Shown piece after piece: positions 56,001-64,000 of a stretch of DNA of 64,000 nucleotides. This DNA comes from Ectothiorhodospiraceae bacterium 2226 (lineage in GTDB: Bacteria; Pseudomonadota; Gammaproteobacteria; GCA-013348725): contig CP054689.1 of the NCBI GenBank assembly GCA_013348725.1, positions 360,501 through 424,500 of the forward strand, read 5' to 3'. Each line of letters starts with the position of its first letter. The first letter of the stretch is position 1. The notes under the pieces were generated by a model that saw only the letters and a program-made list of their open reading frames with translations, was not told where the DNA came from and searched no databases. The position numbers and the translations under genes were made by a program.

Positions 56001-56496
56001 CCGGCGGCGCGCCGTGAAAACGCGTGCGCCAGAAATCCTGCATCACCTGTAGCCCGGCGGCGGCGTCCTCGCCCTCGAACTCCAGGTCGAACAGCATGCC
56101 GCTCTCGAAGGCGTGATCCTGCAGCACGCGCTGGCAGAAACCGTGGATGGTGTAGATGACCGCCTCGTCCATGCGCAGCAGCGCCGACTCCAGGCGCGAA
56201 CGCAGCGCCTGCGCATCACCCGCGCGCGCCAGCACGGCGCGCAGCGTGTCGTCGGGCTCGCCCTGCCCGTCCAGCGCCAGACGCGCGTCGCGCAGGCGGC
56301 TGCGGATGCGCCCGCGCAGTTCGGCGGTGGCCGCCTTGGTGAAGGTCACCACCAGGATCTGCGCCGGGTCCAAGCCCGCCTCCAGCACCAGGCGCAGGTA
56401 CAGCGCTGCGAGGGTGTAGGTCTTACCCGTGCCGGCGCTGGCCTCGATCAGGCAGGGGCCGTGCAGCGCGAGCGTAGCGGAATCAAGCGGGCGCAT
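53017..56496 (-). CDS. recB: Exodeoxyribonuclease V beta subunit RecB
   Basis: This helicase-nuclease unwinds DNA 3'-5' and loads RecA. The protein of 1159 residues starts at ATG 56496 (MRPLDSATLALHG) with Walker A ASAGTGKTYTL. VTFTKAATAELRGR, LIDEFQDTDAVQY and VHIVTIHSSKGLEYPVV are the helicase motifs. The C-terminal nuclease has the D-x-K signature in RFYVIDYKSNYLG. It overlaps recC by 14 bases. The protease gene ptr, which separates recC and recB in E. coli, is absent. Confidence 0.95.
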   Translation of the reverse strand: MRPLDSATLALHGPCLIEASAGTGKTYTLAALYLRLVLEAGLDPAQILVVTFTKAATAELRGRIRSRLRDARLALDGQGEPDDTLRAVLARAGDAQALRSRLESALLRMDEAVIYTIHGFCQRVLQDHAFESGMLFDLEFEGEDAAAGLQVMQDFWRTRFHGAPPALAEFVLHRWGEPAGLWDALRALVGRVAQARLAPPPAWNSIDAALQALDARWRRAATLWANGGEPLGEVLKAYPGWNGNKYRRLAADLDELHAYFAQGRLVLAVPECGKRYLPAKIATGFKKGHAPPEHDFFAAWEALCEGVERLSAVVLHEALRYAAETLRERRRAARRLAYDDLLRELHDALHGPRAAELARGIRARHPVALIDEFQDTDAVQYGIFQRVYGPSEQGGLFMIGDPKQAIYSFRGGDIFTYMSARADAPEEGRYTLTRNWRSTSALVDALNTLFGSARAPFIYEPAIAFQPVEAAGEADAAPLRVEGAPPAPLQVWQLAGEALTKGAAEAAVAEAVAGEIARLLAASGQGRAQLGEAPLRAADLAVLVPTRRHAALVQGALRACGVRSVYTGQDSVYATEEAEELGRVLYALAHPAEEGALRGALLTRLLGVDVPALAALAEDERAWEVWLARFQRYHEQWRTRGFMAMFRGLLRELDVAPRLLGVLGGERRLTNLLQLGELLQEAARTRPPAALLRWLMQQRDQTAADEQMLRLESDEGLVHIVTIHSSKGLEYPVVFLPFPWHGKTLRKNEPLLFHDAHGALTLDLDGSDETHRALAAREALAESLRLLYVALTRAKYTCYLAWGPVNGAHDSALAYLLYQDAAREGQSVAEAVKVLAPEDWWTPWERLAQQGHVRLAPLPEHTDRAPLAPKHPPELAARRFGGSIAHGWRIESYSNLVARLEAAHTAAPLPAADAPRDIHAFPRGAQAGTCLHAVLEGLDFQSEPHERAPELARVLARYGYARQWQGVVERLVHDVLHAPLDAPLNAGGLCLAAVPPEARRPEIEFYFPLAPLRAERLDVCLRRAWAEPCELPPLPPAALEGMMRGFIDLVVEREQRFYVIDYKSNYLGVDAAAYARPALAAAVAQHRYDAQYLLYTVALHRYLAQRVPGYDYDRHMGGVYYLFLRGMQADAPPGQGVFDARPPFEVVTELDALLRGGGA

Positions 56497-59400
56497 CGTG
56501 ACCCTCCAGGTGCTGCGCGTCCAAGAGCCGGCCGCACACCGTCTCCGCGAGCTCCAGGAAACGCGCCGCGTCCACCAGATCGCGCTCGCCCCACAACAGG
56601 CGCCGCCAGGCATCGCGCGTGTCCATGCCGTTGCGCGCCGACTTCAGGGCGGCGGCGCGGCGCGCGTCCTGCGGCGATTTGTCGCCCTTGCGCAGCGTCT
56701 CCAGCGCGGCGAGCGCGGCCTCCGGTTCGAAGGGGAGCGGCGCGCTCAGCCCCTCGCGGTACAGCGCGAGCAAGCCGGCGAGCACAGCCTGCGCGTCCGT
56801 GCAGGTCTCCAAACTCAGCGTCTCCTCGCGGCCAACGTAGAAGCTCGCATCCGCCACGCCCGCCGCGTTCAGCGCGAGGTGACGCAGCCACAGCTCCAGC
56901 CTGTCCTGCGCCCGCAGCTTGCCGCTGCGGTACAGCACCAGGCCGTGCGCGCCGATGCCGGTCAACCAGCCGGTGAGGCGCACGCCGTCCAGGGTCAGAT
57001 CCAGTTCCACCCGCTGCGGCATCGCCGGCAGCAGGGGACGCAGCACCTCGGCCTGCGCGCGCGCCACGCGCGCCAGCGTCTCGAACTCGACCGCCCCGAA
57101 TGCGCCACTCGGCAAGCGCCCCGCGGCGTGCATGCGTTCCGCCAGCGCCTCGGCGGGCTCGTCGCGCAGGAAGGCCTCCACCAGATCGCGGCGCAGGCCG
57201 TAACCGTCCAGGCCGCCGACGGCGAACGGTTCGGCATCCTCCAGCGCGGCCTCCTCGCGCGGCAGGCGCACGCCCAGGCGCTGCTCCAGGAAGGCGCGCG
57301 CGGGGTTCCTGAACAGCGCCACCAGCGCCTCCAGGTCCACCTCGGCCAGCGCCGGCTCGGGCAGCGACGAGGACATCCGCGGCGGCGGCTCGGTGGGGCC
57401 GCGCGCCAGCGCCTGTGCGGCCGGCAGCCATTCCTCGGCATACGAGACGGGCGGTGCACCGTCGCCGTAACAGCGTGTGCTGAACGGCTGCAGCGGATGT
57501 TCGCTGACCAGACACGTGCGGGCGTCTTTGCCCCAACCTACCGCGACATAGTCCAACAACTCGCTCACCAGCACCGAGGGCGGACGCTCGCTGTTGTCGC
57601 GCGCGTCGCGCCCCACGTAGCTCAGGTGCAGGTGTTCGCGCGCCGAGAGCAGCGCCTCCAGGAACAGGTAGCGGTCCTCCTCGCGCGGGCTGGGGTCGCC
57701 TCGGCGCGGGGTCTCGGCCATGAGATCGAAGCTCGGTGGGCGCGCGCGGCGCGGGTAGGCCTCGTCGTCCAGGCCGAGCAGGCATACCACGCGAAACGGG
57801 ACGGCGCGCATGGGCACCAGGGTGCAGAAGGTCACGCCGCCGGAGAGAAAGCCGCCCGGCCCCGCCGGAGTCGCGAGTTGACGCTCCAGATGCTCGCGCA
57901 GCACCTCCACCGTCACCGGCAGCTCGTAGCCGGCACCCGTGGTCTGCTTCACCCACGCGTCCAGCGCGTCGCGCACCGCCTGCACGGCAGCGGCTTCGTC
58001 CTCCTCCTCGGCCTCGAAAAAGCCATCGAGCAGCGCGTTCACCGTCTCCTGCCAGGCCACGGGCGCCAGCGGCTGGGCGAAGCGGGTGGCAAAGCTCTGC
58101 AGGCGCGCCACCAGGGTCTGCAGGCGTCCCAGCGCTTCGGCCTCGCCGCCCTCGATGCCCGCGCAGGGCAGCACGCCCTGCACCAGCGCCGCGCTCGCCT
58201 CGGGCATGGCGTAGCCCAGGAACAGGCGGCGCAGGCCGAAGGCCCAGGTGTTGGCCTCCTCGGCGGGCAGCCCGGCGGCGGCGCGCTGCGCGCCGTCCAG
58301 GCCGTGGCGCACGCCGCTGTCGCGCACCCATTGGTGCAGCAGCGGCAGATCGCGCTCGGCGAGCCCGAAGCGCCGCAGCAGGGACGGCGTCTCCAACAGC
58401 TCGGCCACGCGCCCGGCCTCGAAGCGCCAGCTCGGCAGGGTCAACAGCTCCAGCGCCACCGCCACCAGCGGGTGCAGCTCACGCGGGCCGCGGTCGGCGA
58501 GGCTCCAGGGGATGTGGCGCGGCGGCGGGGCATTGCCGAAAACGGCCTCGACGTACGGGGCATACAACGCCACGTCGGGTGTCATCACCACCACGTCGCG
58601 CGGCGTGAGTCCCGGCAGGGCCTCGAACAGCGCCAGCAGCCGGTCGTGCAGCACCTCCACCTCGCGCAGCGGGCTGTGGCAGACATGCACGCGCAGCGTG
58701 TCGTCGGCCTCGGCGAGGCGCCGCTCACCGGGGGCTGGGGTGGTGAGTGCCAGGATGTCGCGCTGGAGGGTCGGCAGCAGGGTCCCGCCCGCGGGGGCGA
58801 CGAAGTGCTCGTGCTCCTCGCCCGCGTAGTCGTGCAGCTGCTCCAGGAAGGCGCGTCCCAGGCCGCCCCAGGAGGCCAACAGCGGGTTACCGACCTCCAT
58901 ATAGGAGGCGAACAGGTCGCCCTGACGCTCCTGCACCCGCGCGCGGGTGCGCGGCGTGACGATGTCGCCCCAGTAGGCGGTACACGGATTGAGCACGAAC
59001 ACCTGCACATCTGCGCGCTCGGCCACCGCGGCCAGCACGTCCAGGTACGCCGGCGCCAGTGCCGACAAACCGAACACGCTCACGCGCGACGGCAGGCCCT
59101 TGCTACCGAGGCCGGCCGCCCGCTTGCGGTCCGCGTAGCGCTGCAGCAAGTGCCCCCGGTGCGTGCGCCCCTCGGCCAACGCGCGCCACAGCGGCGCCTG
59201 CCAGGGGTCCTCGGACGCTCCGCCCCGCTCCCACGCGTGCAGCCAGTCGGGCCGGTACACCGAGTAGCGGTCGAACACGTCCGCGATACGGCGGCTGAGT
59301 TGATACAGCTTGAGCGGCCGGTCGCGCCCCTCCAGGTACCCGCGCAGGGTCTCGAATCCGGGCGTCTCCACCCAGTCGGGCAGTACGGCCATGCAGCGCC

Positions 59401-59674
59401 ACAGGAGGGTCTCGCGGTCCAGCACGGGCCCGCTCGGCGGCGCGTCCAGTTGCGCCTGCAGCACCCGCCATACGAAAGCGGCCGGCAGCACGAACTCCAG
59501 ATTGGCCGCCACGCCCGTGCGCTCGGCCAACTGCAGCGCCACCCAACGCCCCATGCCTTGACTGGCGGTCACCACCAACTCGGGCGTCAGGGCGCCCTGC
59601 GGGGGTTCGGCCAAGCGTTGCATCAGGCCCGCCAGCAAGTCTTCCGCTCGGTTGCTGTGATGGATGTGGAGCAT
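56483..59674 (-). CDS. recC: Exodeoxyribonuclease V gamma subunit RecC
   Basis: This non-catalytic subunit of RecBCD scans for Chi. The protein of 1063 residues starts at ATG 59674 with MLHIHHSNRAEDLLAGL, the usual RecC beginning; a longer frame upstream has no site. SQGMGRWVALQLAE and VVVMTPDVALYAPYVEAVF are typical of its inactive helicase fold. It opens the recC-recB-recD operon. Because E. coli-type Chi recognition residues cannot be judged by eye, the Chi sequence of this organism remains open. Confidence 0.93.
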   Translation of the reverse strand: MLHIHHSNRAEDLLAGLMQRLAEPPQGALTPELVVTASQGMGRWVALQLAERTGVAANLEFVLPAAFVWRVLQAQLDAPPSGPVLDRETLLWRCMAVLPDWVETPGFETLRGYLEGRDRPLKLYQLSRRIADVFDRYSVYRPDWLHAWERGGASEDPWQAPLWRALAEGRTHRGHLLQRYADRKRAAGLGSKGLPSRVSVFGLSALAPAYLDVLAAVAERADVQVFVLNPCTAYWGDIVTPRTRARVQERQGDLFASYMEVGNPLLASWGGLGRAFLEQLHDYAGEEHEHFVAPAGGTLLPTLQRDILALTTPAPGERRLAEADDTLRVHVCHSPLREVEVLHDRLLALFEALPGLTPRDVVVMTPDVALYAPYVEAVFGNAPPPRHIPWSLADRGPRELHPLVAVALELLTLPSWRFEAGRVAELLETPSLLRRFGLAERDLPLLHQWVRDSGVRHGLDGAQRAAAGLPAEEANTWAFGLRRLFLGYAMPEASAALVQGVLPCAGIEGGEAEALGRLQTLVARLQSFATRFAQPLAPVAWQETVNALLDGFFEAEEEDEAAAVQAVRDALDAWVKQTTGAGYELPVTVEVLREHLERQLATPAGPGGFLSGGVTFCTLVPMRAVPFRVVCLLGLDDEAYPRRARPPSFDLMAETPRRGDPSPREEDRYLFLEALLSAREHLHLSYVGRDARDNSERPPSVLVSELLDYVAVGWGKDARTCLVSEHPLQPFSTRCYGDGAPPVSYAEEWLPAAQALARGPTEPPPRMSSSLPEPALAEVDLEALVALFRNPARAFLEQRLGVRLPREEAALEDAEPFAVGGLDGYGLRRDLVEAFLRDEPAEALAERMHAAGRLPSGAFGAVEFETLARVARAQAEVLRPLLPAMPQRVELDLTLDGVRLTGWLTGIGAHGLVLYRSGKLRAQDRLELWLRHLALNAAGVADASFYVGREETLSLETCTDAQAVLAGLLALYREGLSAPLPFEPEAALAALETLRKGDKSPQDARRAAALKSARNGMDTRDAWRRLLWGERDLVDAARFLELAETVCGRLLDAQHLEGHDAPA

Positions 59675-59839
59675 GGTCTGCCGCCGAAGAGAGCCTCGTA
59701 CTCTACCAGAGCGCCGCGACCACTCGCGTCGCAAGCCACGCCCCGGTCCGCACCACGGTAAAACGTGCACTTAGCTGATAAGGGTAAACCCCTACAACCC
59801 TAGATAAACAACCCCATTTCAAGGTGATAGGGTTTTTCG

Positions 59840-59968
59840 TCAAATGGACCTGCGCAGGAGTCACCCCTTCGGCGCGAGCGCACGGAGGTGCGCCGACTAA
59901 GGATGGTCGGCGCCATGGAAGGCGACCGAATCTCGGTCGCCCGCCGCTATTTGCGGCGGGCGATTTTT
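59840..59968 (+). ncRNA. Candidate RsmY/RsmZ (CsrB-class) small RNA
   Basis: A transcript of about 125 bases on the plus strand would contain five GGA motifs (59846, 59857, 59884, 59901, 59917). Four have the CsrA/RsmA context ANGGA. CACGGAGGT at 59881-59889 matches the high-affinity consensus CANGGANGU exactly and sits in the loop of GCGCAC/GTGCGC. AAGGATG lies in the loop of GCCGAC/GTCGGC (59893-59910). The RNA would end at a strong terminator. No protein gene lies on this strand from 46431-47479 to the window end, so the terminator has no other owner. Promoter and exact 5' end were not determined. Confidence 0.6.
59937..59968 (+). terminator. Rho-independent terminator of the candidate sRNA
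   Basis: An 11-bp perfect stem TCGCCCGCCGC/GCGGCGGGCGA with loop TATTT is followed by five T. A second perfect hairpin GGCGACCGA/TCGGTCGCC (59921-59941) shares 5 bases with the 5' arm, so the two compete. The T-run is on the plus strand only. Confidence 0.9.
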
Positions 59969-60069
59969 CATTTCAGCATGCCGACTTCCCTTTGGGGCCG
60001 CGAGAGACCCTTCGCGCGCCCTTCCCTCGTCAACCCTCTCGCGAGCGGCCACTCCGCGCCGCTGAACGA

Positions 60070-62313
60070 TCAGGCCAAGCTGAGCCGCTCGGCGCGCTGG
60101 TAGCCCTTAGGCAGCTTGCGCCCCCGCTGGCCGCGTTCACCGCGATACTCGGCCAGTTCGTCGGCCTTGAGGACCTTGTGCTGCTTGCCGGCATGCACGG
60201 CCACCGCGCCCCCGGCGGGAACGGCAATGACCGCGGCGACCCGCTCTTCGCCGCTCTTCAGGCGCGGCCCGGGTATCGCGATGATCTTGTTGCCCTTGCC
60301 CTTGGCGAGCTGCGGCAACTCGGCCACCGGGAAGGCGAGCAAATGACCGGCGGTGGTCACCGCCACCAGCTGCGCGCCTTCGCCCGGCACCAGTGTCGGC
60401 GCGAGCGGTTGGGCCCCGGCCGGCACACTGAGCACGGCCTTGCCGGCCTTGTTGCGGCCGTGCAGGTCGCCGGCGCGTACCACGAAGCCATACCCGGCAT
60501 CCGAGGCGAGCACGTACAGATTGTCGGGGTCACCGATCAATAGGCCCGTGAAGCGGGCGCCGTCCGGGGGGGCCAAGCGCCCGGTGAGCGGCTCGCCCTG
60601 CCCGCGCGCGGAGGGCAGCGTGTGGGCGCCGAGGCTGTAAGCGCGGCCGGTGGAGTCCAGGAACACGGCAAGCTGGTTGCTGCGCCCCAGGGCGCTGGCG
60701 AGGTAGGCGTCGCCGGCCTTGTATTGCAGCGCCGCGGGCTCGATGTCGTGACCCTTGGCGGCGCGCACCCAGCCCTTCTCGGACAGCACCACGGTGACCG
60801 GCTCGGCGCTGATGAGCGCGGTCTCGTCCAGGGCCTGCGCGGCGCTGCGCGCGACCAGCGGCGAGCGGCGCGCGTCGCCGTACTTCTCGGCGTCGGCCTC
60901 GAGCTCGTCGCGGATGAGCTTGTTGAGGCGTGCGCGCGAACCCAGCGTCTTCTCCAGCGCGTCGCGCTCCTTGGCAAGGTCCTTCTGCTCGCCGCGGATC
61001 TTCATTTCTTCGAGCTTGGCGAGGTGGCGCAGGCGCAGTTCGAGGATGGCCTCGGCCTGCGTGTCGGTGAGGCCGAAGCGCGCCATGAGCACGGGCTTGG
61101 GCTCGTCCTCGCGGCGGATGATGGCGATGACCTCGTCGATGTTGAGGAACGCGATCAACAGGCCGTCGAGGATGTGCAGGCGGTCGCGTACTTTCTGCAG
61201 GCGCCACTCCAGGCGCCGGCGCACGGTGTCGGTGCGGAAGGCGAGCCACTCGCTCAGCATCTGCTGCAGGTTCTTCACCTGCGGGCGGCCGTTCAGACCG
61301 ATGACGTTGAGGTTGACCCGGTAGCTGCGCTCGAGGTCCGTGGTGGCGAACAGGTGCGCCATGAGCTGCTCGACATCCACGCGGTTAGAGCGCGGCACGA
61401 TGACCAGCCGCGTGGGATTCTCGTGATCGGACTCGTCGCGCAGGTCCTCCACCAGCGGCAGCTTCTTCGCGTTCATCTGCTGCGCGATCTGCTCCAGCAC
61501 GCGCGCGCCGGAGGTCTGGTGCGGCAGCGCGGTGATGATGATGTCGCCGTCCTCGCGCTCGTAGCGCGCGCGCATGCGGATCGAACCCGTACCCGTCTCG
61601 TACATACGAATGAGATCGGCGCGCGGCGTGATCACCTCGGCCTCGGTGGGATAGTCCGGGCCCTGGATGTGCGCGCAGAGCTCCGCCACCGTGGCCTTGG
61701 GGTTCTCGAGCAGGTGCACGCAGGCCGCCACCACCTCGCGCAGGTTGTGCGGCGGGATGTCGGTGGCCATACCGACCGCGATACCGGTGGTGCCGTTCAG
61801 CAGCACGTGCGGCACGCGCGCGGGGAGCATGGCGGGCTCCTCCAGCGTGCCGTCGAAGTTCGGGATCCAGTCCACCGTGCCCTGGCCGAGCTCCGACAAC
61901 AGCAGGTCGGTGAAGGACGCCAGGCGCGCCTCGGTGTAGCGCATCGCGGCGAAGGACTTGGGGTCGTCCGGCGAGCCCCAGTTGCCCTGCCCGTCCACCA
62001 GCGGGTAGCGGAACGAGAAGGACTGCGCCATCAGCACCATGGCCTCGTAGCAGGCGCTGTCGCCGTGCGGGTGGAACTTGCCCAGCACGTCGCCCACGGT
62101 GCGCGCGGACTTCTTGTATTTGTTGCCGGCGCGCAGTCCGAGGTCGGACATGGCGTACACGATGCGCCGCTGCACGGGCTTCAGGCCATCGCCGATATGC
62201 GGCAGCGCGCGGTCGAGGATGACGTACATGGAGTAGTCCAGGTACGCCTTCTCGGTGAAGGCGGACAGCGGCAGGCGCTCGGCGCCCTCGCGGGTGAGGT
62301 CGGTCACTGACAT
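60070..62313 (-). CDS. parC: DNA topoisomerase IV subunit A
   Basis: This DNA-cleaving subunit of topoisomerase IV decatenates chromosomes. The protein of 747 residues starts at ATG 62313 ([10 protein letters not shown]), 5 bases after the parE stop. The active-site tyrosine is in [10 protein letters not shown]. The quinolone-determining loop reads [12 protein letters not shown] with the sensitive Ser and Glu at the E. coli S80/E84 positions. The C-terminal domain is a five- to six-bladed wheel as in ParC, without the GyrA box. Confidence 0.95.
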
Positions 62314-62318
62314 GGGGG

Positions 62319-64000
<1,682 letters not shown>

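Follow-up and report, generated by a model that had tools for sequence, protein, structure and literature searches.

A Predicted CsrA/RsmA-Titrating Small RNA with ANGGAX Hexaloops in the parC-recC Intergenic Gap

The gap between parC and recC very probably encodes a regulatory RNA of about 125 bases with hairpin loops that would sequester CsrA. Here, we report the anatomy and setting of this predicted CsrA/RsmA-titrating small RNA (sRNA; ~125 to 130 nt; positions 59841 to 59969, plus strand), called from its GGA hexaloops, a terminator without a gene of its own, the high AT content upstream, and an RsmY alignment that runs end to end from 59844. On the strength of these sequence features, we consider such an RNA, with high though not full confidence, the best explanation of the segment, and, although the case is convincing, the RNA would be an ordinary addition to the known group that includes RsmY, RsmZ, and CsrB. 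The initial annotation had already read the segment as a CsrA-titrating RNA; that reading gained support, since the hexaloop anatomy is stronger than was claimed and the genome has both CsrA and a GacA orthologue.

Results

The window, i.e., the whole 64,000-base stretch analyzed, comprises bases 360501 to 424500 of a genome assembled as one contig (2,956,257 bases). The parC-recC gap spans ~396 bp between the start codon of recC (59674) and the stop codon of parC (60070), both on the minus strand. The recC gene (exonuclease V gamma; 56483 to 59674, minus strand; Pfam PF04257, E value 1.8e-90) is divergent from the predicted RNA, and parC (60070 to 62319, minus strand) is convergent with it. 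No plausible plus-strand protein gene was found in the gap, so that the terminator, described earlier as having no protein gene to serve, is indeed an orphan on the plus strand. This intrinsic terminator (CGCCCGCCGC-UAUUU-GCGGCGGGCGAUUUUU; 59938 to 59969, plus strand) is strong, with a 13-pair stem-loop and a T run spanning 59935 to 59969, and the 5′ end of the RNA would lie at about 59840 to 59844. An 18-codon open reading frame, from ATGGACCTGCGC... to TAA (59844 to 59900; MDLRRSHPFGASARRCAD), begins exactly at that presumed 5′ end, which would suit a CsrA-regulated or attenuated leader with the terminator as its attenuator; the frame has no Shine-Dalgarno sequence, however, and the downstream plus strand is antisense to parC, leaving no gene to attenuate, so we regard a leader as extremely improbable.

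Five GGA motifs start within 74 bases of the plus strand (59846, 59857, 59884, 59901, and 59917). All except 59857 are ANGGA (4/5), with none on the minus strand of this stretch. Both counts agree with those first given for the recC-parC gap, as does an exact motif match noted there (CACGGAGGT around 59884, equal to CANGGANGU). A published criterion for sRNAs of this type is at least two ANGGA motifs plus a terminator (PMC5568370). Related loci (80 parC loci, 1.38 million strand-bases) and shuffles served as background for chance tests. At least four ANGGA motifs were present in 1/1,000 dinucleotide shuffles, and summed ANGGA accessibility as high as that observed was reached in 0/1,000. In the 95 nt before each terminator, the other terminators among the 15 in the window had one ANGGA at most, and four were never reached at the 310 terminators of the 80 gammaproteobacterial parC loci. 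The plain GGA count (5 in 130) is not rare, with many 130-nt windows of the 64 kb holding at least five; it is the ANGGA and hexaloop context, not GGA count alone, that stands out.

Within ~40 bases, stems of at least 4 bp are capped directly by three ANGGAX hexaloops, at 59882 (ACGGAG), 59899 (AAGGAU), and 59915 (AUGGAA), and a single-stranded AUGGAC at 59844 precedes them. For RsmE, measurements identify this arrangement, an ANGGAX loop with a stem immediately beneath it, as the preferred, high-affinity site (PMC4005645). Where two GGAs had been placed in hairpin loops, with folding proposed as the check, three were found, those at 59884, 59901, and 59917 each lying in an ANGGAX hexaloop; their mean unpaired probabilities ranged from 0.79 to 0.93 (0.93, 0.79, and 0.92, respectively, with the terminator left out of the fold). 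In the same terminator-less fold, the 5′ single-stranded GGA at 59846 had an unpaired probability of 0.80, and the one at 59857, the sole hidden GGA, a value of 0.09. The fold energy was −67.4 kcal/mol (z = −3.75). Across 20,000 shuffles, the maximum was one hexaloop, and none had two or more (versus three observed). The 1.38 million strand-bases of the 80 related loci contained 75 single hexaloops (~1 per 18,000 strand-bases), one pair within 40 nt, and no triple.

The first predicted CsrA site (GCGC-ACGGAG-GUGC; 59878 to 59891, plus strand) can be drawn as a 4-bp stem with a hexaloop or as a 6-bp stem with a GGAG tetraloop. The second (GCGCCGACU-AAGGAU-GGUCGGCGC; 59890 to 59913, plus strand), with a 9-bp stem and an ANGGAX hexaloop, is predicted to be the strongest, and the third (CGCC-AUGGAA-GGCG; 59911 to 59924, plus strand) has a hexaloop on a 3- to 4-bp stem whose bases are shared with the stem of the second. 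A GGA-free hairpin (GGCGACCGA-AUC-UCGGUCGCC; 59921 to 59941, plus strand) follows, adjoining the terminator and competing for its last bases. Because the three sites share stem bases, they cannot all form together at full stem length. Alternative full-length folds also partly hide 59884, while the middle and last sites were accessible in every fold tried. Together, these constraints suggest that two to three high-affinity sites would be usable simultaneously.

The 5′ module (AUGGACCUGCGCAGGA; 59844 to 59859, plus strand) joins the single-stranded AUGGAC to an occluded GCAGGA and aligns to RsmY model positions 1 to 17; it occurs once in the window and recurs where a genuine RsmY in another genome begins (L111; 81.5 bits). 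Immediately upstream lies an AT-rich presumed promoter region (59756 to 59842, plus strand; 56% AT versus 32% for the window; top 0.05% of 87-nt windows). No consensus sigma-70 match was found upstream of the RNA; from a weak TAAACA-N17-TAGGGT with extended TG, transcription would begin at about 59840. We rejected TAAA...GCTGATAA as a sigma-28-like promoter, since its spacing does not fit the consensus. The weakness of the promoter and the failure to detect conservation could mean that there is no RNA gene here, the hairpins being chance products of GC-rich sequence and the terminator either a relic or a device for antisense read-through over recC. The shuffle and terminator controls and the marked AT-rich island argue against this, and no relatives were near enough for conservation to be expected; we consider it very improbable.

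A GacA-type upstream box had also been proposed as a check, and none was recognized near the RNA (TGTAAG-N6-CTTACA, up to 3 mismatches). A poor GacA-box-like inverted repeat, GGTAAA-N7-CTTAGC (59757 to 59775, plus strand), is present ~75 bp before the presumed start, with 4 of 12 positions off and a spacer of 7. The rsmY box of Pseudomonas aeruginosa is at −75 (PMC4950607), and the likeness to it is too weak to count. RsmW, an RsmY/Z-type RNA of P. aeruginosa with 3 of its 7 GGAs on outer loops, shows no GacA activation (PMC4950607), and a GacA box is thus not obligatory.

In Rfam scans with gathering as well as permissive thresholds, nothing rose above cut-off, which bears out the expectation that covariance searches would miss this RNA. 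The RsmY model (RF00195) aligned end to end (1 to 121) from AUGGAC..GCGCAGGA at 59844, with a score of 22.2 bits (cut-off, 57); as this is below cut-off and within the range of terminator hairpins elsewhere, we treat it as a lead and not as RsmY membership, and the RNA cannot be filed in that family. Across the class, RsmY matches exceeded the cut-off in one genome only, and the others resembled terminator noise. The RsmX model (RF02144) gave 19.6 bits (cut-off, 56), and the RsmZ model (RF00166) does not select this locus within the genome, its best place being 2256772 to 2256881 (28.1 bits; cut-off, 44). The top Rfam score in the stretch was Spot_42 (29.5 bits), which would fit an sRNA acting by base pairing (Hfq/ProQ type, e.g., Spot 42-like), with incidental GGA loops. 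The cut-off, however, is 80, far above that score, and the alignment leaves out the middle of the model and draws its bits from the GC-rich 3′ hairpins, so that Spot_42 identity was rejected as a terminator-driven match; since the GGA hexaloops are also far beyond chance, base pairing is an improbable mode of action.

The relatives drawn share only the class with this bacterium, none belonging to its genus, family, or order, and the best identities in the genome collection were ~72 to 73% for ParC and 55% for RecC. BLAST of 59780 to 59975 against 55 other class-level genomes gave short chance matches only. A single-sequence covariance model (R1) found no homologue in 368 other genomes of the class plus 38 genomes of parC relatives, and none of the R1 matches inspected had at least four ANGGA motifs. 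Downstream of parC, relatives had no counterpart to the RNA, and the region upstream of recC, compared in 29 relatives none closer than class, held nothing similar. Over such distances, alignment is difficult even for known Rsm RNAs, and the absence of a homologue is therefore weak evidence either way.

The genome has one intact CsrA, behind lysC (91.5 bits). A GacA/UvrY orthologue (47% identity over 211 residues; L087, G000:C1:114216-114848, minus strand) lies upstream of a uracil-DNA glycosylase-like gene (udg), followed by uvrC. Neither the GacS/BarA sensor domain sCache_4 (PF09984) nor a GacS/BarA-type Hpt hybrid kinase was found in the genome, and the classical kinase is thus missing or unrecognizable. 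Hpt domains were found only in one 1,841-residue open reading frame, whose size and three Hpt domains make a ChpA/PilL-type protein more likely. The GacA orthologue is apparently kinase-less in this genome, and Gac control of the window RNA is not supported. FleQ, FlgM, PilU, and a diguanylate cyclase had been cited in favor of the RNA; we set these aside, since their presence is no evidence for it.

Discussion

Under the preferred reading, an sRNA gene at ~59841 to 59969 (plus strand) would be transcribed independently, and its product would sequester CsrA through the GGA loops. Each CsrA dimer offers two surfaces for RNA binding, so a single RNA might hold one to two dimers, perhaps more. 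Accumulation of the RNA would strip CsrA off mRNA leaders and relieve repression, as with RsmY, RsmZ, and CsrB; this scheme also presumes that some signal regulates the RNA and that the GacA orthologue controls it.

By function, the window RNA should work like RsmY/RsmZ. It shares with Pseudomonas RsmY a length of ~120 nt, the 5′ module A-Y-GGAC-N-GCGCAGG, several ANGGA motifs in loops and single strands, and a 3′ terminator. Unlike RsmY, it buries the GGA of its first hairpin, which is longer, and it has shorter linkers, another genomic place, and no GacA box. Serial GGA hairpins followed by a terminator are common to RsmZ/PrrB and RsmX as well. The same titration mechanism is proposed for CsrB/CsrC of enterobacteria and vibrios, which are much longer and have many more sites. 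RsmW derives from a 3′ untranslated region (3′UTR), whereas the window RNA is free-standing, between genes.

CsrA sponges outpace covariance models, and for this reason lineages outside well-studied genera are mostly without annotated sponges. It is conceivable, if on balance unlikely, that in this isolated lineage, with a GacA orthologue and no canonical GacS, a CsrA sponge arose independently or diverged beyond recognition and titration became wired to a non-Gac input. For a genome with CsrA, GacA, and no recognizable GacS, the candidate offers a testable entry to CsrA switching. The results also suggest that ANGGAX hexaloops on stems before terminators are a sharper search criterion than ANGGA count.

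Two or more Rsm-type RNAs per genome are usual. A second candidate in this genome, at the best place of the RsmZ model, begins directly after the stop codon of clpB and extends to a terminator (L091:1508-1610; G000:C1:2256779-2256881, plus strand); it has seven GGAs in 85 nt, two of them UCAGGGACG. Its GGA count was reached by 84/5,000 shuffles, which makes it less secure than the window RNA. From its sequence, it looks like a 3′UTR-derived, RsmW-like CsrA sponge, closer to RsmW in origin than the window RNA is. Also in this genome, the leader of an mltD-like gene for a membrane-bound lytic transglycosylase (L100:1500-1630; G000:C1:261267-261397, plus strand; ATG at L100:1630) contains a GAGGATG hairpin, CTAGGGACG, and a CCAGGGACTGG hairpin, and is a probable CsrA-regulated mRNA leader.

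Further candidates were seen in other genomes. A CsrB-like RNA candidate lies beside a purU-like gene in a groundwater gammaproteobacterium (L169:1365-1615; G371:C10, contig series JACPFT), where a long GGA-rich stretch (GCCAGGATGGC, CCAGGGACG, CAGGGACGATGG, and others) has a terminator at its end. The metagenome-assembled genome MC-11 (G375) has two related terminator RNAs (L183 and L171) with ACCACCAGGGATGGTGG or CACACGGATGCGGGAAGTGTG hairpins; a GCAGGAG...CATCCATCCATGGA part is common to both, and the two are possible paralogous CsrA sponges.
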